This document shows, piece after piece, positions 10,385 through 35,199 of a stretch of 38,748 nucleotides of DNA. The position numbers and the translations under genes are program-made. Where the stretch lies: assembly GCA_013203595.1 (NCBI GenBank), contig JABMNT010000159.1:1-38748 (forward strand), given 5' to 3'. Numbering within the stretch: the stretch's first letter is position 1; each line of letters begins with the position of its first letter. The stretch comes from Rhodospirillales bacterium. Its GTDB lineage: Bacteria; Pseudomonadota; Alphaproteobacteria; Rhodospirillales; Casp-alpha2. The notes below the pieces were generated by a model. It saw only the letters and a list, made by a program, of their open reading frames with translations, did not search any database and was not told where the DNA came from.

Positions 10385-10592
10385 CGCTTCATACTTACCT
10401 AAGTCAGCCGATATCCACCGTTTTATCAAAGACATGCTGGAAATGTTAGAGAAAATCCGCTAGGTAATGCCCCGATAGGGTTTCACCTTTATCAGGTTCA
10501 ATCCTATTTACAATATGGATTGGCGTTGAAGCACAGAAGCCTTGCGTTATATTCTTTTATGACCCTGAAAAAATCATGACTGCGAGTGCCTT
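10385..10592. promoter_or_regulatory. Divergent hpnA / ispH intergenic region with a hairpin
   Basis: This 208-base region must hold promoters for both hpnA and ispH. A short imperfect stem (CCGATA at 10472-10477 with TATCAGG at 10490-10496, one bulged base, inner GGGT/ACCT pairing) lies on the hpnA side. A 6-bp repeat (CAATCC 10499-10504, GGATTG 10517-10522) follows. The ispH promoter candidate is annotated separately. No strong hpnA promoter was recognised. Confidence 0.45.
10526..10553 (+). promoter_or_regulatory. Candidate sigma70 promoter for ispH-hpnH
   Basis: TTGAAG (10526-10531) and TATATT (10548-10553) are spaced by 16 bases and lie 40 bases upstream of the ispH ATG. This was found by eye only. 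Confidence 0.5.
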
Positions 10593-11552: not shown

Positions 11553-11556
11553 TCGT

Positions 11557-12726
11557 ATGGCTGTTCCCGTCATCCAGCAGTTTCGTGTTGGTAGTTACAT
11601 CATGAAACAGCGCCTTAAGGGCGTAAAGAAATACCCACTGGTGTTAATGCTTGAGCCGCTGTTTCGCTGCAATCTGGCATGCCCGGGCTGTGGGAAAATC
11701 GATTATGAAGACAGTACCCTCAATAAACGTCTGAGCGCTGAGGAATGTTTGCACGCGGCCGACGAATGCGGAGCACCGATTGTCTCGATTCCCGGCGGCG
11801 AGCCGTTAATTCATAAAGAGATCAAGGAAATTGTCGACGGGCTGGTGGCCCGCAAGAAGTTTGTCTATCTGTGCACGAACGGCTTGCTGCTTGAAAAAAA
11901 GCTCGATCTGTTTACGCCGACGCCCTATCTCACCTTCTCCGTGCATCTCGATGGCATGAAAAAACACCACGATAAGGCCGTTGCCCAGGCGGGAACCTTC
12001 GATAAAGCCGTATCGGCGATCAAGGAAGCCAAACGGCGCGGTTTCCGGGTCAATGTGAACTGCACGTTGTTTAACCAAATGACCGCTGGTGAAGCCGCGG
12101 ACTTCTTCGATTACTGCATGAACGAGTTGAACATCGAGGGCATCACCATTTCTCCGGGATATGCCTACGAGCGGGCTCCCGACCAGGAAAGCTTCCTGCC
12201 GCGCCAAAAAACCAAACAATTGTTCCGCGACATTTTCGAACTCCAGGGCAAGAAAAAATGGCGGTTCAGCCAGTCATCGCTGTTTATGGATTTCCTGGCC
12301 GGAAACCAGTCCTACGAATGTACGCCCTGGGGCAATCCGACACGCAATGTATTTGGCTGGCAGAAGCCCTGTTACCTGCTTTCCGAGGGCTATGCCAAGA
12401 CCTTCAGGGAACTGATGGAGGAAACCCAGTGGGACCAGTACGGCACCGGCAAGTACGAGAAATGCGCCGACTGCATGGTGCATTGCGGATATGAGGCCAG
12501 TGCTGTCAACGATACCGTGGCCAACCCGCTCAAGGCTCTGGAGGTCTTTTTGAACGGGATCGACACCAAACGTCCCATGGCACCGGAAATTTCCCTTGAA
12601 AACCAGCGCCCGGCAGAATTTGTCTTTGAAGGTCTGGTTAAAACCCTGACCCAGCAGCGCGAAGAAGACGAAGCCCGCCTACGCGAAGCGAAACAACGGG
12701 CCGATCAGGCTGGTCACGCGGCGTAA
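11557..12726 (+). CDS. hpnH: Adenosyl-hopene transferase HpnH (radical SAM)
   Basis: HpnH is a radical-SAM enzyme that joins the 5'-deoxyadenosyl radical to diploptene, giving adenosylhopane, the first step of C35 hopanoid side-chain formation. The 389-residue protein has the cluster motif CNLACPGC (Cys38, Cys42, Cys45) in the expected N-terminal position, the PGGEPL motif, and a C-terminal cysteine-bearing region (CADCMVHCGYEA). AGGAG nine bases before the ATG overlaps the end of ispH. Its last 48 bases overlap the 3' end of the convergent hpnG gene, which encodes the enzyme for the next reaction. Confidence 0.96.
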   Translation: MAVPVIQQFRVGSYIMKQRLKGVKKYPLVLMLEPLFRCNLACPGCGKIDYEDSTLNKRLSAEECLHAADECGAPIVSIPGGEPLIHKEIKEIVDGLVARKKFVYLCTNGLLLEKKLDLFTPTPYLTFSVHLDGMKKHHDKAVAQAGTFDKAVSAIKEAKRRGFRVNVNCTLFNQMTAGEAADFFDYCMNELNIEGITISPGYAYERAPDQESFLPRQKTKQLFRDIFELQGKKKWRFSQSSLFMDFLAGNQSYECTPWGNPTRNVFGWQKPCYLLSEGYAKTFRELMEETQWDQYGTGKYEKCADCMVHCGYEASAVNDTVANPLKALEVFLNGIDTKRPMAPEISLENQRPAEFVFEGLVKTLTQQREEDEARLREAKQRADQAGHAA

Positions 12727-13359
12727 CTGGGCGATTGCTGTCTCCATGTTTCTGGAGAGTTCCATCAGCGCCTTCAGTTGCTCCGGGTGACGCAGCAGTC
12801 CAGCCATCACGCGGCCTATCTGCGGCCTGCCGTTGGCACCAATAACGCCGAGAGCCGCCGAGGGTATGGCACCTGTCGCGTCATCGGAAATGACGCGAAT
12901 GGCCAGAAAAGGCAACGAGTGAGCAACGGCGACACGGGCCATGCGATGGGATTCCATATCAACGCAAAGTGCTCCGCTCCGCTTGTATATATCTGACTTG
13001 GATTGCACCGTGGCAACTTCCGAATCGGAGCCGTAGATCTCCCCCACCCTTACGATCCCGTTCATCCTGGGCAGGCCGTCACAGACCCGCACTTGCCAGT
13101 TCGCCGCACCGGGCCGGACGACGCCGGTTACATCGGTAACGCCGCTTGAGACGATGATGTCACCGACGCGCAGTTCCGGCGCCAGGGCGCCGGCGACCCC
13201 GAAACTCAGCAGGGCACGGCATCCCTGCTCGATTAAGTCCAGCGACAGGCTTTCCGCACGCTCAGGATCGGCACCCGCACAGACCACCCGCAGATCAGGC
13301 GCATTGCGGGGCAGACAACCTGCTTCACGTGCCAAGCCGGTCACCACCCCGAGTTTCAT
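12679..13359 (-). CDS. hpnG: Adenosylhopane nucleosidase/phosphorylase HpnG
   Basis: HpnG removes adenine from adenosylhopane, leading to ribosylhopane. The 226-residue protein belongs to the purine nucleoside phosphorylase/MTA nucleosidase superfamily. It has a typical LLSFGVAGALAPELRVGDIIVSSGV stretch (quoted only to show its Gly-rich core) and VDMESHRMARVA near residue 150-165, the family substrate-binding region. It is the last gene of the hpnM-C-B-D-E-shc-hpnG operon, with three bases between the shc stop and its ATG. Its stop (TAG, 12679-12681) lies inside the convergent hpnH coding sequence. Confidence 0.93.
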   Translation of the reverse strand: MKLGVVTGLAREAGCLPRNAPDLRVVCAGADPERAESLSLDLIEQGCRALLSFGVAGALAPELRVGDIIVSSGVTDVTGVVRPGAANWQVRVCDGLPRMNGIVRVGEIYGSDSEVATVQSKSDIYKRSGALCVDMESHRMARVAVAHSLPFLAIRVISDDATGAIPSAALGVIGANGRPQIGRVMAGLLRHPEQLKALMELSRNMETAIAQLRRVTSLIGPLFRFA

Positions 13360-13362
13360 GGG

Positions 13363-15327
13363 TTACAGTCCGTAGCGGGGAAGTCTGGCATTTCGGCTAT
13401 TGAGATCGCGGTACCTGGACAACGTCCACAGCGGAAAGAACGAGCGGTAGCCATGGTAACGCAAGTAAAAAATCCGCGGAAACCCGACCGCATTAAAATA
13501 CTCTTCTTCCCATTTTCCACCCTCATGGGGTTCGCGCAGCAGGTATTCAATGCCGCCCTTTACAGACACGCTATGGACTTCGCCAGCGGCCATAAGTCCC
13601 AACACCGCCCATGATGTCTGCGACGGGGTTGACGATTTGACCTCGTCGCGGCGATGCTGCCAGTAACTGGCACAATCCTCTCCCCAGCCGCCATCCGGCT
13701 GCTGGCGGCCCTTCAGCCAGTCAACGGCCTTGCGGACATAGGGTTGCTCCATATCTTCACCAATGGCGTTAAGGGCGCAGAGCACAGACCAGGTCCCATA
13801 CACGTAGTTGTTGCCCCATCGCCCGAACCACGAGCCGTTCACTTCCTGCTCGTTTTTCAGATACCTGAGCGCCCTGACGACCACCTTGTGATCTTTCGAA
13901 TATTCCAGCTGTGCCAGCATTCCCAGACAGCGGGCACTGACGTCTGCCGTCGGCGGATCCAGCAGCGCCCCATGGTCAGCGAAAGGAATATGCTGTAGCA
14001 AATTATGGGTATTGTCGGCGTCAAAGGCGCCCCACCCGCCATTTTCGCTTTGCATCCCGATAACCCACTCAGTCGCCCGGTCGATGGCGTTTTTATATTT
14101 TTCGGGATTCGCCCGGTGCAGCGCCATGACCACAACAGCTGTATCATCAACATCGGGATAATGGTCATTCCAGTACTGGAAGGCCCATCCACCGGGACGC
14201 ACATGCCCCTTATTGGCGGCCCAGTCGCCCTTGACCTCCAATATCTGGCGGCTGACAAGCCATTCCGCGGCCTTGTCAAAAACCGGATCGCCGTCACCAA
14301 TACCGGATTCCAGCAAGGCATGAATGGCCAGACCGGTATCCCAGACCGGTGACAGGCAGGGTTGGCAATAGGCCCGGTTGTTGGCATCATCATAGACCAA
14401 CAGCTTATCGATGGCCTTGCGGGCAATCACATAGTCCGGGTGATCCTTGGCATAGCCCATGGCATCAAAGGCCATTACGGAATTGGCAATGGCCGGGAAG
14501 ATGCCACCCAGACCGTCATCTCCGTTCAGGCGTTCGTGGACAAATTCCAGGGCTTTTTTAATACCACGCGCTTCGAAGTAGGACGGTAACAAGGGTTCCG
14601 CCTTCTGCATAATCCGGTCGAGCAACAAGAACATCTCGCCGATCCAATGGCCCGTCGGATTGACCATATAGTGGGTCTCTTGTTCAGGCGGGACGATAAA
14701 CAGTTCCCTGATATCAACATGGCGCGGGTTTTTTGCCTTGGGCTTCAAAGCGGCAACAACAAATAACGGAATCATCACCGTGCGCGACCAGTAGGACACC
14801 TTATTGATGTGAAACGGCGACCATTTCGGAAGCAGCATGGCTTCGGGACGAATAACGGGAACCGCCCGCCACGGAACCTGTTCGAACAGGGCCAGGGCGA
14901 TGCGTGTAAACACGTTCGATTTTGCCGCTCCGCCATGATCCAAAATGGCTTTTCGGGCTCGCACCATATGTGGTGCCTGTGGATCATCGCCGACCAGTTT
15001 GAGGGCAAAATAGGCCTTCACGGAGGCGCTTATATTAAAATCACCGGCGTGATATAAAGGCCAACCGCCGTGCTTTTCCTGGATGTCGCGCAGATAGACG
15101 GCGAGTTTTTGCTCAACCGCGTCGTTGATATCACCCAGGAAGTGATTGAGGAAAATAAATTCCGCCGGAATGGTCGCATCGGCTTCCAGTTCGAAAGCCC
15201 AATGGCCATCATCTCGTTGCTGGGCTGCAAGCCACTGCGACGCCTCTTCGATCGTCCCATCGAGAAGCCGGTCATCAGAAGCCCTCACCTGATCGGCGGG
15301 GCTCGCTTTTCTGTCAAAACTCACCAT
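13363..15327 (-). CDS. shc: Squalene-hopene cyclase
   Basis: Shc (HpnF) cyclises squalene to hopene and diplopterol and is a monotopic membrane enzyme. The 654-residue length is normal. The catalytic DxDD motif is DVDD at residues 392-395 (YPDVDDTAVV). Several QW-type repeats are visible, such as QSENGGWGAFD and QQPDGGWGEDCASYW, as well as an N-terminal QRDDGHWAFELEAD. The gene starts 120 bases after hpnE with no strong ribosome binding site, and hpnG follows after three bases. It is the central enzyme of the hopanoid operon. Confidence 0.98.
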   Translation of the reverse strand: MVSFDRKASPADQVRASDDRLLDGTIEEASQWLAAQQRDDGHWAFELEADATIPAEFIFLNHFLGDINDAVEQKLAVYLRDIQEKHGGWPLYHAGDFNISASVKAYFALKLVGDDPQAPHMVRARKAILDHGGAAKSNVFTRIALALFEQVPWRAVPVIRPEAMLLPKWSPFHINKVSYWSRTVMIPLFVVAALKPKAKNPRHVDIRELFIVPPEQETHYMVNPTGHWIGEMFLLLDRIMQKAEPLLPSYFEARGIKKALEFVHERLNGDDGLGGIFPAIANSVMAFDAMGYAKDHPDYVIARKAIDKLLVYDDANNRAYCQPCLSPVWDTGLAIHALLESGIGDGDPVFDKAAEWLVSRQILEVKGDWAANKGHVRPGGWAFQYWNDHYPDVDDTAVVVMALHRANPEKYKNAIDRATEWVIGMQSENGGWGAFDADNTHNLLQHIPFADHGALLDPPTADVSARCLGMLAQLEYSKDHKVVVRALRYLKNEQEVNGSWFGRWGNNYVYGTWSVLCALNAIGEDMEQPYVRKAVDWLKGRQQPDGGWGEDCASYWQHRRDEVKSSTPSQTSWAVLGLMAAGEVHSVSVKGGIEYLLREPHEGGKWEEEYFNAVGFPRIFYLRYHGYRSFFPLWTLSRYRDLNSRNARLPRYGL

Positions 15328-15447
15328 CCGGGTTGCCTACAACAAAAGCACCGCCAGCAAAAGGATGTTCCTTCACATGAGCGGTACGATATAATGAATC
15401 AGTTTGGCGGTTTTTGTCAAAAAATAGCAACATTTACAAGGATTGGT

Positions 15448-16713
15448 TTAACAGACAACCAATTCAGCCGCCCGCTGTCCTGAACGAATGGCCCCTTCAA
15501 TCGTTGCCGGAAGCCCATTGTTGGTCCAGTCACCGGCCAGAACCAAATTGTCATAGGCTGTTGACGGATCAGGCCGCTTCAGGACCTGCCCGGGTGTTTG
15601 CGCAAATGTCGCACGTTTTTCCTTTACGATTCGGTGGGGCCCCATCGGGCAGTCACCAAGCTCCAATGCCCTGCAGATTTCCGGCCACAGCCTGAGCGCT
15701 ATATCCGGGCTCGGTTGCGTCGCCAACTCCGTGGCCGCACTGACGGTAACCGATGCCATATCGTTCCTGACAAACAGCCAATGGGAGCAGCCGCCAACGA
15801 GACCAATAAACGCGACTTTCGGGCTGGATGTTGGAAGTCGAAAATGACCGTTTACGATAGCCCTGAACTGGTCGGGCACATCAAGGTCGGGAACCAGCGA
15901 TCCGGCAATTGCCGGTGGCACCGCCAGGATCACATGATCCTGCACCGTCAGTTCAATCCTCGCGCCCGTAAAATTCAGGGCTTTCAGACGTCCGTTTGCA
16001 AATTCCATTTGCTTCAGACGATGGTTGAAAGCGACCGTATTCTTGGTCTTGTGCAAATAGGCCAAAGCCGGCTCAACAAAGCTTTCACTCAACCCCTGGC
16101 GGGCGATCAGCGGTCTGCAGGCGGCAGCACCACGCCCAAAGGTCTCCCGCAGAACCGGCCACAGGAGCTTTGCCGAGGCCTTGTCCGCCTCCGTATTGAG
16201 GACCGACACAGCAAGCGGTTCCCAGAACCGCTCGAACAGCTGGCCGTTGCCCTTCAAACACTGGCTGACGGTTTTCCCAGGCGGTGCCCAGGCCAGCGCG
16301 ATCCCCCTCAGGTATTCCCATAAGCTGGTGCCGGGAACCCGCCCATCGCTCGAAAGCAAGGACCAGGGAATGAGGCCCTTGTCGGGCTTTACCGACCATC
16401 GCTCACCGGTCCGTAAATCCATGAACGGGAAATCCGCCTGATCGGGGCCGGTCAGCGAGGCTTCGGCACCGATTTGCCTGAGATACTTCTGTGTTGCCAG
16501 ATTACCGCTGAGCAGCAGATGGTTGCCATTATCAATACGGCATCCCAAGGTGTCGTCGTAAAAAGACCGACAGCGCCCACCGGCATGACCCGCCCCTTCA
16601 TAAACCGCGACCCGGCGACCACGCGCCGCCAGGGCAACAGCGGCAGCAAGCCCGGCGACCCCGGCACCAATGACATGTACGGTTCCGGCCGCCCCCGAAA
16701 ACCCCGTCGCCAA
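15448..16713 (-). CDS. hpnE: Hydroxysqualene dehydroxylase HpnE
   Basis: HpnE is an FAD-dependent amine-oxidase-like enzyme that reduces hydroxysqualene to squalene. The protein is about 421 residues from the chosen start, in line with the family. The FAD-binding motif VIGAGVAGLAAAVALAARG is at the N-terminus, followed by GGRCRSF, and the C-terminal LVLAGDWTNNGLPATIEGA is the typical FAD-binding end. The open frame reaches back to 16788, but a TTG at 16711-16713 lies one base past the hpnD stop codon and gives the family-like N-terminus; this start is inferred. The gene is coupled to hpnD. Confidence 0.93.
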   Translation of the reverse strand: MATGFSGAAGTVHVIGAGVAGLAAAVALAARGRRVAVYEGAGHAGGRCRSFYDDTLGCRIDNGNHLLLSGNLATQKYLRQIGAEASLTGPDQADFPFMDLRTGERWSVKPDKGLIPWSLLSSDGRVPGTSLWEYLRGIALAWAPPGKTVSQCLKGNGQLFERFWEPLAVSVLNTEADKASAKLLWPVLRETFGRGAAACRPLIARQGLSESFVEPALAYLHKTKNTVAFNHRLKQMEFANGRLKALNFTGARIELTVQDHVILAVPPAIAGSLVPDLDVPDQFRAIVNGHFRLPTSSPKVAFIGLVGGCSHWLFVRNDMASVTVSAATELATQPSPDIALRLWPEICRALELGDCPMGPHRIVKEKRATFAQTPGQVLKRPDPSTAYDNLVLAGDWTNNGLPATIEGAIRSGQRAAELVVC

Positions 16714-16714
16714 C

Positions 16715-17584
16715 CTAGAGCAACCCGAAACGGAGCGCTGTCCAGGCTTTTTCAATCTTCGACAAATGAACGGGTTTGGACAGATCACGCCATCCCCGGC
16801 GCATCAGCTTGTCAAGAATCTGGCTGTAGACTTCCATCATCATAATCGCCGGGCGCACCTGATCCCGACGGCATTGCTTGATCAGGTCTCGCGCCTCCGC
16901 ATAGCGGCGGGCTGCCGTAAGGGAAAGCAGTTCACAGACATCAGCCAAAGCCGGGTCGGCGATGACCGCGTCAATATCGTCGGCGTCAATATCATGGGAG
17001 ATCAGCAGATCGCGCGGAATGTACAGACGATTGCGGCCGGCATCCTCTTTCACATCGCGCAGTATATTCGTCAATTGCAGGGCCTGCCCCTGGGCATCGG
17101 CAAGTCGCACACCGAGGCTTTCGGGCACGCCAAATACCCGTACGGACATGCGCCCGACCGCGCTGGCGACCCGGTCGCAATAGGTTTCCAGCTCCGCCAT
17201 ACTGGCGATCCGCACGGCTTCCTGGGCGTCCGTTTCCATGCCGTCAATGACATCGCGGAAATCGTTTTTGAGTATCCCGTATTTTTCCACCGGCCCCAGC
17301 AAGGCCCTGGAAATCAGATGGCGCGGCTGTTCGCCATAGAGGCGTTCAATTTCACCCCGCCACATGGCCAGCCCGGCCCGCTTTTCGTCGATGGCACCGG
17401 GCTCGTCGGCAATGTCGTCGACTTCACGGCAAAACGCATAGATGGCATACATGGCCCGACGCTTTTCGTCAGGAAGCCGGCGCATGGCCCAATAAAAGGA
17501 GCTGCCTGCACGCAGGACAATGGCCTCTATTTCGGCCTCGGAACCAGCTTCCGCCGCCTCAGAAATGGGTTGTGTAAGGGTCAT
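16715..17584 (-). CDS. hpnD: Presqualene diphosphate synthase HpnD
   Basis: HpnD condenses two farnesyl diphosphates to presqualene diphosphate. The 289-residue protein has both aspartate-rich motifs of the squalene/phytoene synthase fold: FCREVDDIAD (Asp56, Asp57, Asp60) and NILRDVKED (Asp177, Asp181), followed by RNRLYIPRD. It works ahead of HpnC and HpnE in the three-enzyme bacterial squalene route, all encoded here. About 100 bases separate it from hpnB upstream, and hpnE starts at its stop codon. Confidence 0.96.
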   Translation of the reverse strand: MTLTQPISEAAEAGSEAEIEAIVLRAGSSFYWAMRRLPDEKRRAMYAIYAFCREVDDIADEPGAIDEKRAGLAMWRGEIERLYGEQPRHLISRALLGPVEKYGILKNDFRDVIDGMETDAQEAVRIASMAELETYCDRVASAVGRMSVRVFGVPESLGVRLADAQGQALQLTNILRDVKEDAGRNRLYIPRDLLISHDIDADDIDAVIADPALADVCELLSLTAARRYAEARDLIKQCRRDQVRPAIMMMEVYSQILDKLMRRGWRDLSKPVHLSKIEKAWTALRFGLL

Positions 17585-17681
17585 GGTCGATATCCATACA
17601 CGACCAAAAGCATTACGTCATCCCTCACGTTTTCAAAAAATTGCAGGCCCCGATCATTTTCCGACATAGCAGCAACCGGCT

Positions 17682-18833
17682 CTACTTTTTGGCGTAACTT
17701 CTGCCTTTCCAGGCCCCACCCTGGCCGCGCCAGTGGCGAGCTGCCGATGACAGGGTCATCAGTGCATACATTAACCCGGCAAGCGGCAGGGTCAGGGCGC
17801 GGAATAACGACATCTGATAGGCCATCAGGGTTGGCCGGTACAGACCCCCCATGAGCAGACACGATCCACCAGCCGTCAGCCAGAGCAGCGGATTATGGAC
17901 AGCCAGCCCGTACACCAACAGCACTGGCGGCAGCAGATAGATAAGGACCATGGCGACGATTGTTCCCAGCAAATTACACAGTGAATGGTCAAGCTGGACA
18001 AAGGCCGTTCGTGCAACCATCAGCCAGATCTCGGACAGCTTGCCATAGGCACGCAGGCTGCGGGTCTGTGTGGACAGGCCGAGCCAGATCGGCCCCTGGC
18101 GTTTGATCTGGGCGGCCAGCGCACAATCGTCGATCAGTCGGTCGCGAATAGGGGCAATTCCGCCGGTCTGACGCAAGGTTTGGAGCCGGACCAGCATGCA
18201 GCCACCGGCGGCGGCGGCCATCGGATGGGCCGGGTTATTGACCAGCGGGAACGGGTATAGTTTCTGGAAAAAAAAGACAAAGGCCGGGATCAGCAGTTTC
18301 TCCCAGAAACCCACGCAGCGAAGCGCCACCATCAGCGACACCAGATGGCAGTTGTCGGTGATGGCTTTGCATACCAGTTGGCGCAGGTTGTCCGGATCAT
18401 GGGCGATATCCGCATCCGTAAGCAGCACATAGTCCGCATCCGGCGCAATTTCGTCAATTGCCTGCACCCCCTGATTGACCGCCCACAGCTTTCCGGTCCA
18501 GCCTTCTGCAAGCGCCGCGCCGTGAATCACATGCAGGTCTTTGTCTGTTCCGGCCGCTTTCGCAGTTGCATCGTCACTGTTGTCGTCAACCACAATCACG
18601 CGGATCTGGCCCCGGTAGGTTTGCCTGAGCAGCGATGTGACCGTAACACCAATTGTCTCGGCTTCATTGCGCGCCGGAATAACCGCGACGACGGATGGCC
18701 AATGTTCGAGATCGAGATCGACCGCCGGATCCAGTCGCTGATCGGCCCGCCAGAAGCCACCCCGAAAAAAAGCCAGAACGAGCCATATCAGCAGCGACAG
18801 ACCGCTGATCCCTATCAATCCGGCCGCGATCAC
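17682..18833 (-). CDS. hpnB: Hopene-associated glycosyltransferase HpnB
   Basis: HpnB is a GT2-type membrane glycosyltransferase that is part of many hopanoid clusters; its exact acceptor is unproven. With the GTG at 18833 the protein has 383 residues: an N-terminal membrane helix (about 2-24), the GT-A domain with VVAVIPARNEAETIG, VVDDNSDDAT and the metal-binding TDADI (139-143), and C-terminal membrane helices. The frame is open to 18884, but the GTG overlaps the TGA of hpnC in a GTGA junction, which fits coupling and the normal family N-terminus. Confidence 0.92.
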   Translation of the reverse strand: MIAAGLIGISGLSLLIWLVLAFFRGGFWRADQRLDPAVDLDLEHWPSVVAVIPARNEAETIGVTVTSLLRQTYRGQIRVIVVDDNSDDATAKAAGTDKDLHVIHGAALAEGWTGKLWAVNQGVQAIDEIAPDADYVLLTDADIAHDPDNLRQLVCKAITDNCHLVSLMVALRCVGFWEKLLIPAFVFFFQKLYPFPLVNNPAHPMAAAAGGCMLVRLQTLRQTGGIAPIRDRLIDDCALAAQIKRQGPIWLGLSTQTRSLRAYGKLSEIWLMVARTAFVQLDHSLCNLLGTIVAMVLIYLLPPVLLVYGLAVHNPLLWLTAGGSCLLMGGLYRPTLMAYQMSLFRALTLPLAGLMYALMTLSSAARHWRGQGGAWKGRSYAKK

Positions 18834-19738
18834 CTGGACGCCCTGAAGCCCAGCCCGCTTGTCACACCCAGCAGACAGCACCACAGGTAAATGGTTTTTG
18901 GCAACTGGACCCGTGTGGCCAGGGGATCATCCGTCCGCAAGCGGTCAATCAGCCGCTCGGCAATATTGATGATTGCCTGACTTTCCATGGCCAGGCGGCG
19001 GCTGCGCAGCCCTGCGGGAAGTGTTCGGGCCTGCGGCATCAGTTCAGCAGTCGCCGAGATCACCTGATCAAGAAGCAGCCGACCGGGTTTCGAAAGACAG
19101 GGGGCAGCCAGTGCCTGAGCCGTAACCCCATGCCCGTTCATCCAGTCCATGGGAATATACACCCGGTCCATCTGTTCAAAATCTTCCTTGCAGTCCTGCA
19201 GGTGATTGATGATCTGCAGCACGATGCACAGGGCGTCTGACGGGCCATAGCCAGCATCGGATCCCCCGTGTAAATCGATCAGATAGCGACCGACGGGTGC
19301 CGCAGACAACAGACAGTAATCGACAAGTTCGTCCCAGTTCCGGTAGCGGTTTTTTACGGAATCCTGCTTGAAAGCTGTGATCAGATCCAGGCAATGGCGG
19401 TTTGAAACCTGCGTTTCCTTAAGGCTTTCGCGCATGCGGTGGGCGGTCACAAATGCGGGCGAAGCCGTATCATCCCCGAGAATGGCTTTTTCGAACCCGT
19501 CCAGGCGCGCAATCTTTATTTCAGGCGTCAATTGCGGATTGTCGGCGATATCATCAATCGCCCGGGCAAACCGGTAGTAGCAGGCAATATGCGGCCGCAG
19601 GGCGCGCGGCAATAACCAGGAGCCAACGGGAAAGTTTTCGTAGGCCGCATCCTTGCCAGACGGGGTTTCCACGTCGGGCACATCAGAAACTGTCATATTA
19701 AAACCGGTGTTGTGAAAATAAACGGTGTCGACGTTCAC
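18830..19738 (-). CDS. hpnC: Hydroxysqualene synthase HpnC
   Basis: HpnC converts presqualene diphosphate to hydroxysqualene. The 302-residue protein has ARAIDDIADNP (Asp62, Asp63, Asp66) and NHLQDCKEDF (Asp182, Asp186), the two Asp-rich motifs of the squalene-synthase fold, and DVETPSGK...ENFPVGSWLL near the N-terminus, typical of HpnC rather than HpnD. The GTG start at 19738 overlaps the hpnM stop as GTGA. An ATG 14 codons later (in FNMTVSDV) is an alternative but lacks a ribosome binding site. Its TGA in turn overlaps the hpnB GTG. Confidence 0.95.
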   Translation of the reverse strand: MNVDTVYFHNTGFNMTVSDVPDVETPSGKDAAYENFPVGSWLLPRALRPHIACYYRFARAIDDIADNPQLTPEIKIARLDGFEKAILGDDTASPAFVTAHRMRESLKETQVSNRHCLDLITAFKQDSVKNRYRNWDELVDYCLLSAAPVGRYLIDLHGGSDAGYGPSDALCIVLQIINHLQDCKEDFEQMDRVYIPMDWMNGHGVTAQALAAPCLSKPGRLLLDQVISATAELMPQARTLPAGLRSRRLAMESQAIINIAERLIDRLRTDDPLATRVQLPKTIYLWCCLLGVTSGLGFRASR

Positions 19739-20370
19739 GTATCAACTTTGACACGCTTACGCAACTCGTCGAGGAGGCCTTCAACCTTGTTGTCGTGCTG
19801 GCGAATAACCGATGAAAATTCTTTTTGCTGGGTAATTCCCATGCTCAGCCCCTCAACCATGACATCGACAACTTTATAGGAATCATCCTTCGGTCTGACC
19901 CGCCAGACAACGGCAACGGCTTTTTGACCATCGGGCCGCTGCAAGACAGAATGAACCAACGCATCCTTTTCAGCCCGAACCTCGGTTTTTTGGATCTTCA
20001 GCTTTTCGCCGGCATACTTCTCGAACCGATCCGCGTAAGTGATGACCATCAGTTTTTCGAAAAGCGCCAGATACTCTTTCCGTTGCGGATCGCTGGCACG
20101 CCGCCAGTACCGACCCAGCACCCATTTGGCGATGACATTAAAGGCGAAATATTGGTGCATCAACTGGCGAAATCGCTCGCGTCGCTGGTCGGTTTCGAGC
20201 CCCGACTGGGTGAGCGATACAAGTGCATCGTCAGCCAGGTGCTCAATAAATGTGCGGGCGCCAGCTTCAAATTCATCATCGTCTTCAGCGGCAAATGTCT
20301 GGTCTGGCAACAATGCAACGGCTCCGGCGAAGCTGCCAACAAATGTTAAAAAAAGGCGACGATTTAACAT
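19735..20370 (-). CDS. hpnM: Hopanoid-associated MlaC/Ttg2D-type periplasmic protein HpnM
   Basis: HpnM is a 211-residue exported protein of the MlaC/Ttg2D (toluene-tolerance) family, whose members shuttle phospholipids between membranes; the HpnM branch is found with hopanoid genes and may help move lipids to the outer membrane. A Sec signal peptide is clear: NRR, a hydrophobic core, and a probable cleavage after TFA near residue 27. The mature part has FAFNVIAKWVLGRYWRRAS, characteristic of the family. It is the first gene of the hopanoid operon. HpnN, the RND-type partner, is not in this window. Confidence 0.93.
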   Translation of the reverse strand: MLNRRLFLTFVGSFAGAVALLPDQTFAAEDDDEFEAGARTFIEHLADDALVSLTQSGLETDQRRERFRQLMHQYFAFNVIAKWVLGRYWRRASDPQRKEYLALFEKLMVITYADRFEKYAGEKLKIQKTEVRAEKDALVHSVLQRPDGQKAVAVVWRVRPKDDSYKVVDVMVEGLSMGITQQKEFSSVIRQHDNKVEGLLDELRKRVKVDT

Positions 20371-21822: not shown

Positions 21823-22764
21823 TCAAACCTTTTTGACTGAGCCCGCCAGCGCCTTGCGCACGTTATCGGCCGTCAGAAAACTGACCCGCACGTTGGACTC
21901 GTCCGTCATGGCGCCGATATGTGGGGCCAGGATCAGATTGGGAACACCTTCCAAAACCGATCCGGCCTTGACCGGTTCCTGCTCAAACACATCCAGAAAG
22001 GCACCACCCAGGCGCTCGTCCCGCAAGGCATCGGCAAGCGCCTGCTCAACAACCACACCGCCACGCGCCGCATTGATCAGGATCGCGTCGGGTTTCATTT
22101 TGGCAATCGCTGCCGCGTCGATCATGTGCCGGGTTTCATCAATCAATGGAACATGCAGGCTGATGGCGTCAGAATCCGTCAGCAGGTCTTCGAACGACGA
22201 CGGGGTTACCGACAGCTCTTTCCAGGCGGGATCGTCAGCCGGCACCAGCGGATCATAAGCCGACAGGGTCATACCCAGCGGCTTCGCCCGCAGCGCAACC
22301 GCACGGGCAATCGCGCCAAACCCAACCAGGCCCAGATGATGCCCCTGAATTTCACGCCCCCCCAATGTCAGGCGCGGCCACGCACCGGACAGCACCTTGT
22401 CACTGGCGTGATAGGCGCGGCGGAACAGCACAAACAAAGCGCCAATCACCAGTTCCGCAACGGAATCGGTGTTTGCGCCAGTGGCCGGAAACACCTGAAT
22501 ATTACGTGCCGCACAGGCCTCGAGATCGATATTATCCAGCCCCACACCCAGCCGCCCGACAACCCGCAGATTGACGGCGGCCTGTAAAAGATCACCACGC
22601 ACCTGGGTTATATTGCGGACCAGCAGGGCCCGCGCATCTTTCAATGCCGCCCTCAGGGCTTCGGGTTGATTGACCAGATCCGGGTCGAACAGGACATCGA
22701 AATCCCTGGCAAGAGATTCGACGGCTGAAAGTTCCATATGCTCGGAGATAACAATATCGGCCAT
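21823..22764 (-). CDS. slcC: D-2-hydroxyacid dehydrogenase, probably (S)-sulfolactate dehydrogenase (SlcC-like)
   Basis: A 313-residue NAD-dependent dehydrogenase of the D-3-phosphoglycerate/D-2-hydroxyacid family. It has RLGVGLDNID, TGANTDSVAELVIGA, the dinucleotide motif VGFGAIARAV, and the catalytic Arg234 (NAARGG), Glu263 and His282 (PHIGAMTDES). Sulfolactate dehydrogenase SlcC belongs to this family and makes sulfopyruvate. Being divergent from a GntR gene and next to comDE-like genes strongly suggests that role here, though phosphoglycerate or another hydroxyacid remains possible from sequence alone. Confidence 0.75.
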   Translation of the reverse strand: MADIVISEHMELSAVESLARDFDVLFDPDLVNQPEALRAALKDARALLVRNITQVRGDLLQAAVNLRVVGRLGVGLDNIDLEACAARNIQVFPATGANTDSVAELVIGALFVLFRRAYHASDKVLSGAWPRLTLGGREIQGHHLGLVGFGAIARAVALRAKPLGMTLSAYDPLVPADDPAWKELSVTPSSFEDLLTDSDAISLHVPLIDETRHMIDAAAIAKMKPDAILINAARGGVVVEQALADALRDERLGGAFLDVFEQEPVKAGSVLEGVPNLILAPHIGAMTDESNVRVSFLTADNVRKALAGSVKKV

Positions 22765-22844
22765 TGGCTACCCGTTCCCTGACTGTTTTTGACTTAGCTC
22801 GAGCTTTGCATACCCTATTGCCTTCCACAAGAAATTCCTATAAC

Positions 22845-22856
22845 TCTTATATAAGA
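22845..22856. promoter_or_regulatory. Candidate operator of the GntR/HutC regulator
   Basis: TCTTATATAAGA is a perfect 12-bp palindrome in the divergent slcC-like/gntR intergenic region, 16 bases before the regulator ATG. It resembles the A/T-centred palindromes bound by HutC-type GntR proteins. A TATAAC -10-like hexamer (22839-22844) adjoins it, so binding would block the promoter. The regulator's own operator is inferred. Confidence 0.6.
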
Positions 22857-22871
22857 ATTTACAGGAACCGC

Positions 22872-23603
22872 ATGCAGACATCACATGTCACCCCGGGCGA
22901 CGGCCCGCTTTTCGCACAGGTCCAGGCGCTGATGATCCGGCGCATGGTCGATGGGCAGTGGCGCCCGGGCGACTGTCTGCCATCGGAATTTGCGCTGGCG
23001 GCCGAGTTTTCCGTATCGCAGGGCACCGTCCGCAAGGCGCTCGACGCCCTGGCCCAGGAAAAACTGGTGGTCCGCCATCAGGGGCGCGGCACCTTCGTAT
23101 CGGCTCATTCGCCACAGCGCGAGCTTTTCCGGTTTTTCCATCTGGTTGGTAAAAACGACATTCAGCAGCCCCCCCGGACCAGCCAGCTGATTGCCTTCAA
23201 CAGCCGTCGTGGCAGCCGCCAGGAAACGCAACGGCTGGGGCTGGCTGCAGGCCAGCGGATCATAAACATCAGGCGCCTGCGCAGCATGGGTGGAAATCCG
23301 GTGATTATCGAAAATATTTCCCTGCCGGAAGCCCTGTTTGCCGGGCTTGGAAAACGCCAGGAGGTTCCGAACGAGCTCTACCAGTTTTATGAACAGAGCT
23401 ACGGCGTCACCATCTACAAAGCCGTTGAACATTTGACTGCCTGTGCGGCCAGCGCTGACGAAGCCGGCTACCTGTCCATAGCCACAGGTGCGCCCCTTCT
23501 TGAAGTTGACCGACTGGCCGTCACCCTGGACGGAACTCCGGTTGAATGGCGGGTCAGCCGCTGCGACACCCGCGCGCATTCCTATCTCAGTGAAATCATC
23601 TAA
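22872..23603 (+). CDS. GntR family (HutC subfamily) transcriptional regulator
   Basis: A 243-residue regulator with an N-terminal winged helix: LFAQVQALMIRRMVDGQWRPGDCLPSEFALAAEFSVSQGTVRKAL is the GntR signature region (residues about 14-58), followed by HQGRGTFV. The C-terminal half, with VPNELYQFYEQSYGV and ADEAGYLSIATGAPLLEVDRLA, fits the UTRA ligand-binding domain of HutC-type members. The ATG at 22872 follows AGGA at good spacing; the open frame extends 36 codons upstream without such support. It lies 27 bases before comD and is divergent from the slcC-like gene, so it probably controls both. The inducer may be a sulfonate (inference). Confidence 0.92.
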   Translation: MQTSHVTPGDGPLFAQVQALMIRRMVDGQWRPGDCLPSEFALAAEFSVSQGTVRKALDALAQEKLVVRHQGRGTFVSAHSPQRELFRFFHLVGKNDIQQPPRTSQLIAFNSRRGSRQETQRLGLAAGQRIINIRRLRSMGGNPVIIENISLPEALFAGLGKRQEVPNELYQFYEQSYGVTIYKAVEHLTACAASADEAGYLSIATGAPLLEVDRLAVTLDGTPVEWRVSRCDTRAHSYLSEII

Positions 23604-23630
23604 CAGACATGAACAGGAAACGAGGACATA

Positions 23631-24134
23631 ATGACTTTCAATATCAGTGAACGCATCGTCGACGACATGGTCGCGGCAGGCATTAATTTCGTTACAACGG
23701 TGCCCTGCAAGCAGTTGGCCGGGGTCATCGATCTGGTTGAAAAAAACGACCAGATCAGGCACGTGCCATCAAACAAGGAAGATGAAGGTATGGGGCTTTG
23801 CGCCGGGTCCTACATGGGCGGTGGCAAGCCATGCATCATCATGCAAAACACGGCCATTGGTGTCACCGTCAACACCCTCTCCGCACTCATACAGTTCTAC
23901 CAGTTCCCGCTGCCGATGCTGATCAGCTATCGCGGCGAAGTCGGCGAGCCGGTTGCCTGTCAGGTCGAAATGGCCCTGCACACCAAACCGATTCTGCAGC
24001 AAATGAACATCCCGACCTTCCATTTCCACAAGAAATCCGATGTTGAGGAATTGCCAGCCATTCTGGCCTACACGCAGATGTGCAAAAAACCAACGGCGAT
24101 CCTGACCGACGCATCCTTCTGGAGGGCTGCATAA
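23631..24134 (+). CDS. comD: Sulfopyruvate decarboxylase, alpha subunit (ComD-like)
   Basis: A 167-residue protein matching the N-terminal half of a ThDP-dependent decarboxylase. It has VPCKQLAGVID, PSNKEDEGMGLCAGSYMGGGKP with the Glu that activates thiamine diphosphate, and MQNTAIGVTVNTLSAL. The split alpha/beta arrangement and sizes fit sulfopyruvate decarboxylase, which converts sulfopyruvate to sulfoacetaldehyde. A phosphonopyruvate decarboxylase is usually one long chain of the same family and is less likely. The stop codon overlaps the ATG of the beta gene (TAATG). Confidence 0.88.
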   Translation: MTFNISERIVDDMVAAGINFVTTVPCKQLAGVIDLVEKNDQIRHVPSNKEDEGMGLCAGSYMGGGKPCIIMQNTAIGVTVNTLSALIQFYQFPLPMLISYRGEVGEPVACQVEMALHTKPILQQMNIPTFHFHKKSDVEELPAILAYTQMCKKPTAILTDASFWRAA

Positions 24135-24697
24135 TGATTAGAAACGAAGTTCTGAAATCCATCGTTCCGGTCATTACCGATGAACTGGTGATCTGTAATA
24201 TCGGCAGCCCGTCGCAGGAATTGTTCAGCCTGGACGATCAGCCAAGCAACTTCTACATGCTGGGCACCATGGGTTTGTGTTCGTCCATTGGCCTGGGCCT
24301 GGCTTTGTCGCAACGTGAAAAGGTCATCGCCATCGATGGCGACGGTTCGGTGCTGACCAATCTGGGCACCCTGCCGACCATTGCCAATAATGTTGCGGAT
24401 AACTTTATCCTGCTGATCATCGACAATGGCAGTTATGGCTCGACCGGCGACCAGCCGACCTATGCCGGCATGAAAACATCGCTGGCGGCCGTTGCCGAAG
24501 CCTGCGGCTGTGACCATGTTGTTGAATGCCAGGCCGAGGACACGGCGGAAGAATTAAAGAAAGCGCTGGCCGCTGATCAGATGACCATCATTGTCTGCAA
24601 ATGCCAGTCCGGCAACGTGAAAGTACCGGTTATTACCATGAACCCGGTGGTGATTGGTGACCGGTTCATGAAGGAAGTCCAGAAACGCAACGCCTGA
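24134..24697 (+). CDS. comE: Sulfopyruvate decarboxylase, beta subunit (ComE-like)
   Basis: A 187-residue protein supplying the ThDP-binding half of the enzyme. The cofactor motif reads GDGSVLTNLGTLPTIANN, the classical GDG...NN pattern, preceded by MLGTMGLCSSIGLGLAL. It pairs with the ComD-like subunit encoded immediately upstream; the ATG overlaps that gene's TAA and GGAGG lies eight bases upstream inside comD. The product sulfoacetaldehyde would normally be handled by Xsc, which is not in this window. A strong hairpin terminator follows. Confidence 0.88.
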   Translation: MIRNEVLKSIVPVITDELVICNIGSPSQELFSLDDQPSNFYMLGTMGLCSSIGLGLALSQREKVIAIDGDGSVLTNLGTLPTIANNVADNFILLIIDNGSYGSTGDQPTYAGMKTSLAAVAEACGCDHVVECQAEDTAEELKKALAADQMTIIVCKCQSGNVKVPVITMNPVVIGDRFMKEVQKRNA

Positions 24698-24720
24698 GCT
24701 TGCCTGCGGATCCGCAAACA

Positions 24721-24765
24721 AACCCTGTGGCGCTGGCTCGCCAGATCGCCACAGGGTTGTCTTTT
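24721..24765 (+). terminator. Compound hairpin terminator after comE
   Basis: A perfect 12-bp stem (AACCCTGTGGCG 24721-24732 with CGCCACAGGGTT 24747-24758) is extended by an inner 5-bp stem (CTGGC/GCCAG) with a two-base loop and a two-base bulge. A T-rich tract (TCTTTT) follows, 23 bases after the comE stop. Confidence 0.85.
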
Positions 24766-24824
24766 GTCTGCAGACCGGATACCACCAGTGCAGACCCTTC
24801 ATCTCCACAATCAGGCCACCGCCC

Positions 24825-25595
24825 ATGCTTTTCCCCGTCGTTGAAGGTGTTGAATTTAATAGCCTGACCGTTTCTCTTATTCTGGCCGTGTTCTTCGTTG
24901 CCGGGCTGGCCAAGGGTGCAATCGGTTTTGGCCTGCCGATTATCGCAATCTCCCTGCTGTCATCGTTTATTCCGGTCAGCGTCGGCCTCGCCCTCAACGT
25001 CATACCGCCGGTCATCCTCAATGTCTGGCAGGCGACCCACAAGGCGTCACTGGCAAGCAACGCGAAACGAATCTGGCCGGTGTTGCTGGGCCTGGCCGCC
25101 GGGATCGCGCTGACCACCCAAATCATTACCGGTGTGCCGCCCCAGTTGATCCTGGGCATGGTTGGTGTGGTGATCCTGCTGTTCTGTATCAATTCGCGCT
25201 GGGGCATGCAGTTGACGGTGCCAAAAAACCGGGAAAAACCCTACGGCCTGCTCACCGGATTGATCTGCGGGATTATGGGCGGCCTGACTACCGTCAGCGT
25301 GCCGCCGTTTCTGGCCTTCCTGGTCACCCTGGGTTTGAACAAGGACGAATTTGTATCGACCCTCGGGCTGTATTTCGTGTTTGCCAGCATCTGTCTGATC
25401 GCCGCCTTCAGTTTCGTCGGCCTGTTGAACGCCACTTTTATCCCTTTCGCCCTGGCCTGCACGGCAGTTGCCGGCCTCGGCATGTGGTGCGGCTTTAAAA
25501 TTCGCAACCGTCTGGATCAGAAGAAATTCTACAATGCGGTGCTGGTGATGATGGCGCTGATAAGCCTCAATCTCATCCGCCGCGCGGTCTTTTGA
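24825..25595 (+). CDS. TauE/SafE family sulfite/sulfonate exporter-like membrane protein
   Basis: A 256-residue membrane protein with about eight hydrophobic segments. FVAGLAKGAIGFGLPIIAI near the N-terminus and the repeated GLICGIMGGLTTVSVPPFLAF half fit the two-repeat TauE/SafE family. Several members of the family export sulfite released from sulfonates or take up related anions. Placed after a sulfopyruvate decarboxylase, a sulfite or sulfonate role is reasonable, although a strong terminator lies between the genes. The ATG at 24825 has only a weak ribosome binding site. Confidence 0.88.
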   Translation: MLFPVVEGVEFNSLTVSLILAVFFVAGLAKGAIGFGLPIIAISLLSSFIPVSVGLALNVIPPVILNVWQATHKASLASNAKRIWPVLLGLAAGIALTTQIITGVPPQLILGMVGVVILLFCINSRWGMQLTVPKNREKPYGLLTGLICGIMGGLTTVSVPPFLAFLVTLGLNKDEFVSTLGLYFVFASICLIAAFSFVGLLNATFIPFALACTAVAGLGMWCGFKIRNRLDQKKFYNAVLVMMALISLNLIRRAVF

Positions 25596-33220: not shown

Positions 33221-33370
33221 CACCTTGTTTTGGTGAAATCGCCGACGTTTCTGCCATCAGCACTCTTAATAATTGCAACCCCTCCTCACTTTATACTAAT
33301 GTGTGGTGTAATATAATAATGTCCGTGAATTGTATAATAAATAAAACAGGCCTTGGGGGAGGCAAATATT

Positions 33371-34168
33371 ATGGACGGAAAAGAGATTAGTACGGCGGAA
33401 ATCGAAGACTTCAACGTGACCACTTTGGCCTCTGAAACACCGCCCCGGGACGATGCTTATCTGCTCGACTTGTTTATCGGCAAAAACAGCGCTCCGTTTC
33501 TGAATGTCTACAAAGCAATGCAATCGGAAAAACGCTTTAAATGGACGGGCTGGTCGGGAATCAATTTTGTTGCCGGCTTGTTCGCCTTTCCCTGGTTTTT
33601 TTATCGAAAACTATATCTGGAAGGCGCTGCCCTGATCCTGATCCCGGTCCTGCTCAGCTTTCTGTTTCCCGAATTCATGGATAAGGCGCGGCTCGGCCTT
33701 ACCGGTGTTTTAATGATTTTGGCAAACCGATACTATATGGAGCAATCGCTCAAAAAGGTAAGGGCAATCGATGCGCTGGAAATACCGGTTGAAGAGCGCG
33801 ACGCTTTGCTCCGGTCGCGGGGCGGGGTTTCTCTGGCAGGTGGCATTTTTGGTGCCGTCATTTTTTGCGCTTTAATTGGCTTGTTCTTTCTCGAAGCCAG
33901 CGCCGCAAAAACCCTGCCTTCCTGCGATGCGGCGCCTACAAAAAATTTAGTGAAGTCTTTGATGCTGGAAAGCCTGAAAGAGCAAAATATCCCCACCGAC
34001 GCAATTGTATTTGAAAATTTTACGGCCATTGGCACGGAGGCTGATGAGCGCCATACATGCAGCGTCTTGATGCGAAACAACACCTCCTCGGCGACCAGAA
34101 ATTATAGCGTTGAATGGGAGAATAAAAACGATGGAAAATTTCGGGTTTTCTTTAATCTGACCCCATAA
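33371..34168 (+). CDS. DUF2628 family membrane protein
   Basis: A 265-residue protein with a polar N-terminal part (1-55), three hydrophobic segments (WSGINFVAGLFAFPWFFYRKLY region, the following LILIPVLLSFLF, and GGIFGAVIFCALIGLFFL), and a C-terminal extracytoplasmic-looking domain (about 180-265) with two cysteines. The FAFPWFFYRKLY region fits the DUF2628 family. Its function is unknown. GGGAGG precedes the ATG at ideal spacing. It is preceded by an AT-rich leader with several TATAAT-like hexamers (33300-33340) and followed 14 bases later by a PrsW-like protease gene. Confidence 0.85.
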   Translation: MDGKEISTAEIEDFNVTTLASETPPRDDAYLLDLFIGKNSAPFLNVYKAMQSEKRFKWTGWSGINFVAGLFAFPWFFYRKLYLEGAALILIPVLLSFLFPEFMDKARLGLTGVLMILANRYYMEQSLKKVRAIDALEIPVEERDALLRSRGGVSLAGGIFGAVIFCALIGLFFLEASAAKTLPSCDAAPTKNLVKSLMLESLKEQNIPTDAIVFENFTAIGTEADERHTCSVLMRNNTSSATRNYSVEWENKNDGKFRVFFNLTP

Positions 34169-34182
34169 CAAGGCTCATCGCC

Positions 34183-35199
34183 GTGCGGTTTATCATGCTT
34201 TTTTTGGCCATTGCTCCGGCGATGGTGTGGCTGCATTATTTTTGGGAACGCGGTTCGTTCCGGGTTTATTATGAGTCACTGCTGACGGCACTTGCGATCG
34301 GGGCCGTCGTCGCCTTCCCGGCAGCGGCTGTCGCGCTGTTTACAATGGGGACAATGAATGCGGGCGGTGACATCCATCTTCAGGCCCTGGCGAATGCATT
34401 TCTGGGCGCATCCATTCCGGAAGAAATTGCAAAGTTTTGCGGTATTTTCATCTGCCTGTATCGCGGCAGGAATGAACTGCGCCGTCCCTACGACATTGTG
34501 GTCATTGGCGTTGCCGTCTCCGTTGGTTTTGCCGCCCTGGAAAATATGTTTTATATTGGCGATTCCGAAAACTGGAGGGCAACGGCTTTCCTGCGCAGTT
34601 TAACCGCTGTTCCGGGACACGCCTTTACCGGCGCAATTATGGGCACCCTTATCGCAATCTCGCGGATAAGGTCAGGGTCGCGGACATTTCTTATCCTTGC
34701 CCTGTGCCTGCCGGTTATATTGCACGGCCTCTATGACTACCTGGTTTTTCTTGAACAGATCATACGCTCCCGACACATCACGGCGCTGTTCTGGATGGCG
34801 GAACTGGCACAACTGGCCTTTATTCTGGTCGTCAGTGGTGAGGGTATTCTGAGCCTGAAAATCTCCGCCCGTATCCTCAATAGCCCTCTGAAATTCGAAT
34901 CCGCCCCCTACCCGGATTTATCGCCGTTGTTTTTGAAAAAATGGCAGAAAGCGGACCGACTGAGGTATTGGCTGTGGTTTCTTTTATCCCTGGTCATGAT
35001 AGCGGCCGGCCTGCTTCTCGGGCTTTACCTGATATTGAGCGCAGAAGACTATGGCAGCCTGATTTTTGAATTCGGTGAAACCAGAAATATCCCGCGCCTG
35101 TTTCTCGGGCTTGGATTGTGCATATTCTTGGGATTTCATGGCTTTACGTTCTTCAGACATGGCCGCAGTCAAAAGCGGTTAAACAGCAAAATCAGATAG
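34183..35199 (+). CDS. PrsW family glutamic-type intramembrane protease
   Basis: A 338-residue multi-pass membrane protein of the PrsW family, relatives of the CPBP/Abi proteases. The active-site motifs are visible: EEIAKF (Glu80, Glu81, Lys84), ALEN (Glu120), GHAFTG (His146) and HGLYDY (His181, Asp185). PrsW in Bacillus subtilis cuts the anti-sigma factor RsiW; the substrate here is unknown and no sigma/anti-sigma pair is nearby. It follows the DUF2628 gene closely and is probably co-expressed with it. It starts at GTG 34183 (or ATG 34195), and its stop overlaps the convergent amidase gene by eight bases. Confidence 0.88.
   Translation: MRFIMLFLAIAPAMVWLHYFWERGSFRVYYESLLTALAIGAVVAFPAAAVALFTMGTMNAGGDIHLQALANAFLGASIPEEIAKFCGIFICLYRGRNELRRPYDIVVIGVAVSVGFAALENMFYIGDSENWRATAFLRSLTAVPGHAFTGAIMGTLIAISRIRSGSRTFLILALCLPVILHGLYDYLVFLEQIIRSRHITALFWMAELAQLAFILVVSGEGILSLKISARILNSPLKFESAPYPDLSPLFLKKWQKADRLRYWLWFLLSLVMIAAGLLLGLYLILSAEDYGSLIFEFGETRNIPRLFLGLGLCIFLGFHGFTFFRHGRSQKRLNSKIR

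Follow-up and report, generated by a model that had tools for sequence, protein, structure and literature searches.

A gene pair encoding a DUF2628-subfamily membrane protein and a PrsW-family protease, found side by side in nine genomes

A pair of adjacent genes was analysed on a 38,748-nucleotide stretch of DNA (the window; contig JABMNT010000159.1, positions 1 to 38,748 of the forward strand, assembly GCA_013203595.1) from a Rhodospirillales bacterium. The first gene encodes a DUF2628-subfamily membrane protein and the second a PrsW-family glutamic intramembrane protease (Table 1). The PrsW protein matched its Pfam family with 104.1 bits (E 9e-30, cut-off 23.5) and scored 101.7 bits against the NCBIfam equivalog for the RsiW protease (NF033739), not reaching the cut-off of 225. 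The DUF2628 protein lay barely above its Pfam cut-off (24.4 bits versus 23), and no NCBIfam model matched it. A preliminary description of this DNA had placed the two genes 14 bases apart behind an AT-rich leader. Coordinates, strand, spacing and composition all agreed with it: 14 bases separate the two open reading frames (ORFs), which lie on the same strand, and the GC content of the leader was 0.387, compared with 0.567 for the window. The leader contained two sigma-70-like sites against a mean of 1.7 in shuffled sequences, which is not above chance. The GC content of the pair (0.505) corresponded to the 0.5th percentile among equal-length segments of the contig. A sodium/bile-acid symporter-family gene lies upstream of the pair and a convergent amidase gene downstream. 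The preliminary description had also reported that no sigma/anti-sigma pair is present, and indeed no such family was found among 30 other window ORFs (E 1e-6) or in the two flanking genes, the scope of the search being these ORFs. A sigma pathway thus has no local support.

Table 1. Positions of the paired genes, their features and related fusion genes; positions refer to the window unless preceded by a locus name.
Feature	Position	Strand	Remarks
Leader of the pair	33221..33370	+	AT-rich; holds sigma-70-like site and ribosome-binding-like site
Sigma-70-like site	33290-33317	+	10/12 matches in promoter scan
GGGGGAGG, ribosome-binding-like site	33355-33362	+	Precedes DUF2628 ATG; read from the sequence
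DUF2628-subfamily membrane protein (P0001)	33371..34168	+	265 aa; ATG 33371, TAA 34168; PF10947
DUF2628 model match	33557..33715	+	Residues 63-115
GGVSLAGGIFG, GGxSxxGxxxG segment at entry of last membrane helix	33821..33853	+	Residues 151-161
Last membrane helix of DUF2628 protein	33833..33907	+	Residues 155-179, predicted helix
C-terminal domain, window copy only	33917..34165	+	Residues 183-265; predicted helix and four strands
AAGG	34170-34173	+	Precedes PrsW GTG start
PrsW-family glutamic intramembrane protease (P0002)	34183..35199	+	338 aa; GTG start 34183; PF13367
EExxK active-site motif (E80, E81, K84)	34420..34434	+	
H146, additional active-site histidine	34618..34620	+	Invariant in alignments A1 and A6
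HxxxD motif (H181, D185)	34723..34737	+	
PrsW C-terminal extension past core	34879..35196	+	Approximately residues 233-338; two more predicted long helices
PrsW-TPR fusions with DUF2628 partner upstream	L209:2943-5099, L210:11-4108, L211:1957-4668	-	

Nine genomes, including that of the window, carried a DUF2628 gene immediately upstream of a PrsW gene in the same order and on the same strand, with spacings from −4 to 90 bases. When genome contigs were scanned widely with a PrsW alignment, at least 80 loci were obtained, and among the best 80, ranked by likeness to the window PrsW, the arrangement was found in two alphaproteobacteria, Microvirga sp. VF16 (L114, genome G791; gap of 5 bases) and UBA6062 (L089, genome G792; gap of 29 bases). 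Their DUF2628 proteins matched that of the window with pairwise E-values of 1e-18 and 2e-29, and their PrsW proteins with 1e-23 and 5e-27, respectively. The family of the Microvirga genome, searched with a PrsW alignment, had PrsW in 8 of 248 genomes, and five of the eight had the partner (G791; G975, 1-base overlap; G819, gap 35; G921, gap 24; G910, 4-base overlap). The three counted as unpaired were G865, in which the PrsW-like genes (L169, L172, L213) contained stretches of unknown residues and a partner gene was not found, and G843 and G911, which held short PrsW pieces, that of G911 at a contig start. In the family of the UBA6062 genome, PrsW occurred in two of 25 genomes (G792 and G1044, the latter with a gap of 7), both with the partner, and a DUF2628 alignment search detected the same two genomes and none elsewhere. 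Since the DUF2628 proteins of both genomes and one PrsW were rows of the query alignments, the informative part of this result is that neither gene occurs alone there. The counts of five of eight and two of two come from targeted searches and are biased; in the broader samples the pair was seen in 1 of 25 PrsW-bearing genomes of the class, which is the window's own, and at 2 of the best 80 loci. A DUF2628-based search of the Microvirga order produced matches in 52 of 244 genomes, of which five exceeded 70 bits and the next reached 37 bits. Two of the five were paired (G791, itself a query row, and G1257, gap 90) and three were not (G1140, G1099, G1174); none of the lower-scoring DUF2628 genes stood beside PrsW among the loci listed.

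The nine pairs were distributed over eight gene settings, several of them known from one identified flank. Only the order xseB-pair-dxs was common to two genomes (Microvirga and G975). The other settings were symporter/amidase (window), a Dus-family gene (G1044), a DUF374 gene (G819), MarR-family and TRAP-transporter genes (G921), a carB-like gene (G910), a threonyl-tRNA-synthetase-like gene (G1257) and an unassigned gene (L089). That the pair was kept together in distant genomes despite these changing surroundings suggests that the two genes work as a unit.

The paired proteases retained the catalytic signature of their family. EExxK and E[ND]xxY were kept in all nine, and HxxxD in eight, with HxxxN in G1257. 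In eight, the further histidine was found where expected, within a PxHxxxG pattern, and G1257 had a histidine at the corresponding place by eye. The accessible text of PMC4602095 assigns EExxK, HxxxD and a further histidine to the PrsW active site and likens PrsW to a CAAX protease. The Pfam match of the window PrsW stops at residue 194. Its structure model had a mean predicted local distance difference test (pLDDT) score of 79, with high confidence for the core helices and low confidence for the helices at 248-286 and 303-337. The model had no match in the PDB at E ≤0.001 (best 0.40); given the CAAX protease likeness stated in that text, this search was uninformative and is not evidence for a new fold. 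Bacillus subtilis PrsW, the site-1 protease of the anti-sigma factor RsiW, belongs to the same family and shares EExxK, HxxxD and the further histidine. The window PrsW differs from it by the C-terminal two-helix extension, the linked DUF2628 gene, the lack of a sigma/anti-sigma gene among the window ORFs scanned and a score far under the NCBIfam equivalog cut-off. In G819, G921 and G910 the PrsW reading frames were far longer, with 718, 1365 and 903 open codons, and in each of them Pfam identified TPR repeats following the PrsW domain. By eye, the TPR repeats of L209 come after a charged stretch as well as a hydrophobic helix, which suggests that the repeats lie outside the cytoplasm.

The partner proteins formed a distinct subfamily of DUF2628. 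In a tree, the paired DUF2628 proteins and four unpaired relatives made up their own group (100/100 support), separate from 16 canonical rows, and what distinguished this group was the last membrane helix with a GG[TV]S segment ahead of it. Canonical DUF2628 proteins (PF10947), of which Escherichia coli YigF is one, have the membrane-domain core in common with the paired subfamily by profile and differ from it in that the segment and the last helix are added only in the latter's group. The window, Microvirga and UBA6062 genomes (G000, G791, G792) each contained one additional DUF2628 gene of the canonical type. As proteins, four of the eight other pair members passed the Pfam DUF2628 cut-off (L165, L166, L174, L089) and four did not (L167, L168, L114, L178); the L114 gene passed it in the genome search (23.3 bits). 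Within the DUF2628 stretch of the window protein, W75, Y78-R79-K80 and Y82 were invariant among eight aligned pair members, as were G151, G152, S154, G157 and G161 of the glycine segment. Hydropathy analysis placed membrane segments at residues 81-99 and 158-176 (mean 2.29 for the latter). Packed membrane helices frequently show GxxxG-type patterns. Within the first 25 residues of all nine partners, acidic residues outnumbered basic ones (trimmed starts were used for L166 and L178), their N-terminal tails were variable in sequence, and Pfam detected no effector domain in any of them. The N-terminus of the partner would lie in the cytoplasm and the C-terminus outside.

We tentatively explain these observations by a PrsW protease with a dedicated DUF2628-subfamily membrane partner, probably an adaptor or a regulatory subunit, and put the chance of this being correct at slightly less than even. 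In its favour are the adjacency and order conserved in nine genomes, the intact protease motifs, the broad agreement of the two protein trees, the correlated distances of the two proteins and the glycine segment at the last membrane helix of every paired partner. The last helix of the partner would pack against PrsW through its glycine face, and the partner may bring substrates to PrsW or hold PrsW in check. On the window partner, the added C-terminal domain could serve as a head for sensing or inhibition. A more specific and rather doubtful proposal is that the DUF2628 protein represents the first dedicated non-catalytic PrsW subunit to be described, which would dock via the glycine-face helix and control substrate access or activity, with lineage-specific add-ons tuning the input. 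Such add-ons might be the extra extracytoplasmic head on the window partner and the TPR repeats on the protease in three genomes.

Several observations weigh against a dedicated partner, and the first of them concern distribution. In the class sample of 385 genomes, in which PF13367 and PF10947 were both searched, PrsW occurred in 25 genomes, DUF2628 in 143 and both in 10, compared with 9.3 expected (25 × 143 / 385). Among the DUF2628 places listed, adjacency was seen in the window's genome alone, and this was also the only one of the 25 genomes with PrsW to show a DUF2628 neighbour in flanks of approximately 1.5 kb. A profile search of the flanks of the class PrsW loci (shorter at contig ends; no upstream sequence visible for L025) yielded no further partner. 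Likewise, 78 of the best 80 PrsW loci in the wide scan had no such neighbour, three of these with fewer than 550 bases visible upstream. Taken alone, the family-level test would have spoken against the idea of a link, but it is insensitive, because the paired subfamily often falls under the Pfam DUF2628 cut-off (four of the eight other members). The conserved association on which the preliminary description had made its idea depend was found for one subfamily (nine genomes, eight settings) and did not exceed chance at the level of whole families (10 versus 9.3 expected). Four relatives of the partner had no PrsW nearby (L005, L179-L181), one of them with the full glycine motif. The distribution of GGxSxxGxxxG speaks for a dedicated partner, with nine of nine paired DUF2628 proteins, one of the four unpaired relatives (L005) and none of 16 canonical proteins carrying it; a point against is that this count was made on the same sequences in which the motif had first been spotted.

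The remaining points against come from the trees. In the comparison of the two proteins, both trees recovered the groups {window, L089, G1044}, {L114, G975} and {G910, {G819, G921}}, which favours a dedicated partner; the order inside the first of these differed between the two. A single clade of the eight paired PrsW proteins was rejected in an approximately unbiased (AU) test (p 0.003); with L169, which has no partner gene nearby, added to the clade, it was not rejected (AU p 0.08). An unpaired lineage of tandem PrsW genes (L017, L019) sat among the paired PrsW proteins, and in the larger tree the PrsW of G1257, on a long branch, was placed apart from the other paired ones. The clade rejection and the placement of G1257 point either to repeated gain or loss of the partner or to an unsure tree. 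The first PrsW tree comprised 102 rows; rows outside 200-480 aa were excluded, as were L031, L032, L033, L016, L118, L120, L133, L090, L104 and L018 (duplicates, fragments, fusions). The second comprised 36 chosen rows without the long-branch L178, and the AU tests covered eight pairs. Six class loci that our own PrsW profile did not recognise (L013, L015, L028, L029, L030, L035) were left out of the trees; L013, L015 and L028 nonetheless passed the Pfam PrsW cut-off, and the flanks of all six were searched for DUF2628.

Additional gene arrangements were observed around unpaired members of both families. In the family of the window's genome, genome G038 carried a protein in which a GYF_2 domain precedes a DUF2628-subfamily domain with GGxSxxGxxxG intact (L005:1036-1968), and no PrsW match was obtained there with the window PrsW as query. 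The three other unpaired relatives (L179:769-1770, L180:1-1950, L181:1-1962) had long N-terminal regions, Ala/Pro-rich in two, and were convergent with a MatE transporter gene (by Pfam for L180, by eye for the rest), with no PrsW nearby. Genomes G310 and G084 contained tandem PrsW-like genes with a 4-base overlap and without DUF2628 (L017, L019, L031, L032), the longer copy of which fell among the paired PrsW proteins in the tree. Pfam analysis of the ORFs upstream of other PrsW genes (57 of 64 listed ORFs) indicated no common partner. Seven ORFs of 70-91 aa, likely spurious, were omitted from this set (L016, L080, L090, L099, L118, L121, L148), and the 75-aa ORF of L012 was retained. Among the 25 of 91 families listed, TPR, glutamate-synthase-like Fer4_20/Pyr_redox and histidine-kinase families each occurred in 4 of the 57 ORFs. 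DUF2628 was not among these 25 families, in a set that included L089 and L114. One PrsW gene from another class of the phylum (L065:797-1501) was preceded, 8 bases upstream, by a gene for a 193-residue protein (L065:207-788) with two hydrophobic segments, no Pfam match and, by eye, a PH-like front part; it is possibly a different PrsW partner.

The pairwise distances of the two proteins were correlated (Mantel r 0.89, permutation p 1e-4), also without G975, one of a close pair (r 0.74, p 2e-4). As this correlation is uncorrected for shared species history, it demonstrates co-inheritance rather than contact. Among 48 genomes of the window's family, the window PrsW matched only itself, and the DUF2628 protein matched itself and a weak relative in G038 (E 1e-6), a genome without a PrsW match. 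This family-wide absence, together with the low GC content of the pair, makes transfer into the window genome likely. The patchy distribution and the low GC content would also suit a compact cassette that travels as a block, or genes that merely share expression, each acting alone without physical contact, for example in membrane quality control; the distances of co-transferred genes would correlate even without contact. We regard this explanation as improbable: the order DUF2628-then-PrsW was kept at mostly 17-45% identity and in eight settings, which would outlast the usual passive linkage, and the glycine motif was retained in the paired forms.

The preliminary description had taken the extracytoplasmic C-terminal domain of the DUF2628 protein, with its cysteines, as an argument for a substrate, sensor or chaperone role. 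The window protein does have 89 residues behind the last hydropathy segment, two cysteines among them, and the added domain of approximately 83 residues probably lies outside the cytoplasm. The argument fails, since the domain was present in only one of nine paired partners. From the start of the GG motif to the end of the protein there were 26-37 residues in eight partners, corresponding to the end of the last helix, and 115 in the window copy. The comparison of DUF2628 protein sizes that it had proposed showed the extra length to be confined to the window copy, the other eight paired proteins having no such domain. Being so confined, the domain cannot underlie the conserved association. The window DUF2628 model was of low confidence, with a mean pLDDT of 64 and block values of 53-76 within the added domain. 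With this model, the VIA aligner returned a designed binder and two potato multicystatin entries as best rows (Z 9.3, 9.1 and 8.8), the match to potato multicystatin with Z 9.1 extending over 81 residues, and cystatin-based binders were also among the best rows; for models without a clear match, the best Z is usually 7 to 8. Foldseek with the same low-confidence model of the domain found nothing at E ≤0.001 (best 0.26). Sequence searches with the domain revealed no relatives in the PDB, phages or plasmids and no Pfam family at its cut-off. A sub-threshold Pfam match to F54D1_6_C (E 0.21, 12.2 bits of 27) was judged to be due to chance. Judging by the predicted model, the domain is perhaps a cystatin-like roll.

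The topology of the partner is also consistent with a dedicated substrate, cut by PrsW in or near the glycine-rich last membrane helix, such that the cut would free the N-terminal part towards the cell interior or, for the partner in the window, the ectodomain towards the outside. Anti-sigma substrates have a single N-in/C-out helix, and the lone last helix of the partner would have the same orientation. Furthermore, the entry segment was glycine/serine-rich, and possibly helix-weakening, in all nine partners, and the genes were paired one-to-one. We nevertheless consider a substrate role, the main alternative to the dedicated partner, rather unlikely. Eight of nine partners had no ectodomain, so that a classical site-1 cut would have nothing to release, and this favours a partner over a classical substrate; the N-terminal tails were acidic in all nine, yet sequence-variable and devoid of a Pfam effector domain. 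In regulated intramembrane proteolysis of anti-sigma substrates, the intramembrane protease is likewise combined with a membrane protein, either linked or dedicated, the last helix of which is N-in/C-out, as is probable for the partner described here. The present pair differs by the absence of a sigma gene among the ORFs scanned, of a sigma-binding domain in the partner and, in eight of nine cases, of an ectodomain.

A role in conflict, in which PrsW would be a channel for export or processing and the DUF2628 protein either cargo or an immunity factor, was considered because of the patchy distribution and because the accessible part of PMC3482391 describes PrsW domains fused N-terminally to toxin domains in polymorphic toxin systems. 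In those PrsW-dependent toxins, as far as that part goes (PMC3482391), PrsW is likewise a module combined with other domains; here the linked small membrane protein is encoded by a separate gene, and the three fusions carry TPR repeats and no toxin domain. Neither the window PrsW nor the three fused PrsW proteins contained a Pfam toxin domain, and neither window protein had a PADLOC match. Searches of plasmids gave no match for the DUF2628 protein of the window or that of Microvirga, and four weak matches to the window PrsW, all below 36% identity. The alignment of the paired DUF2628 proteins had no relatives on viral contigs, and in PHROGs only two chance-level matches were obtained (E 0.27 and 0.23). 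On these grounds a conflict module appears highly improbable.

Returning to the dedicated-partner explanation, the protease is of a known kind, and its genetically linked membrane partner has so far gone undescribed. To our knowledge, few substrates or regulators of PrsW proteases outside Bacillota are known. The suggestion in the preliminary description that the unit is undescribed is in line with our literature search, in which no publication was found that names DUF2628 together with PrsW or holds the Pfam accessions of both families, most subscription papers and all preprints lying outside its scope. In the literature excerpts available, DUF2628 appeared as a domain of unknown function within a protein architecture or as a table entry. 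The pairing provides a testable hypothesis on function for one subfamily of DUF2628. If the partner controls PrsW, the pair would constitute a genetically simple two-gene system for studying intramembrane protease access, a soil Microvirga being one possible host for such work.

Elsewhere in the window, two other gene groups were observed. Positions 9404-20370 encode a squalene-hopene cyclase, a squalene/phytoene synthase, an amine oxidase, a radical SAM protein with DUF3463, a phosphorylase-family gene, LytB/IspH and MlaC, which we take to be a hopanoid-type cluster. Positions 22764-25592 encode a GntR/UTRA regulator, a short protein with the N-terminal domain of thiamine pyrophosphate (TPP) enzymes and a TauE sulfite exporter, and are perhaps a sulfonate-degradation locus.

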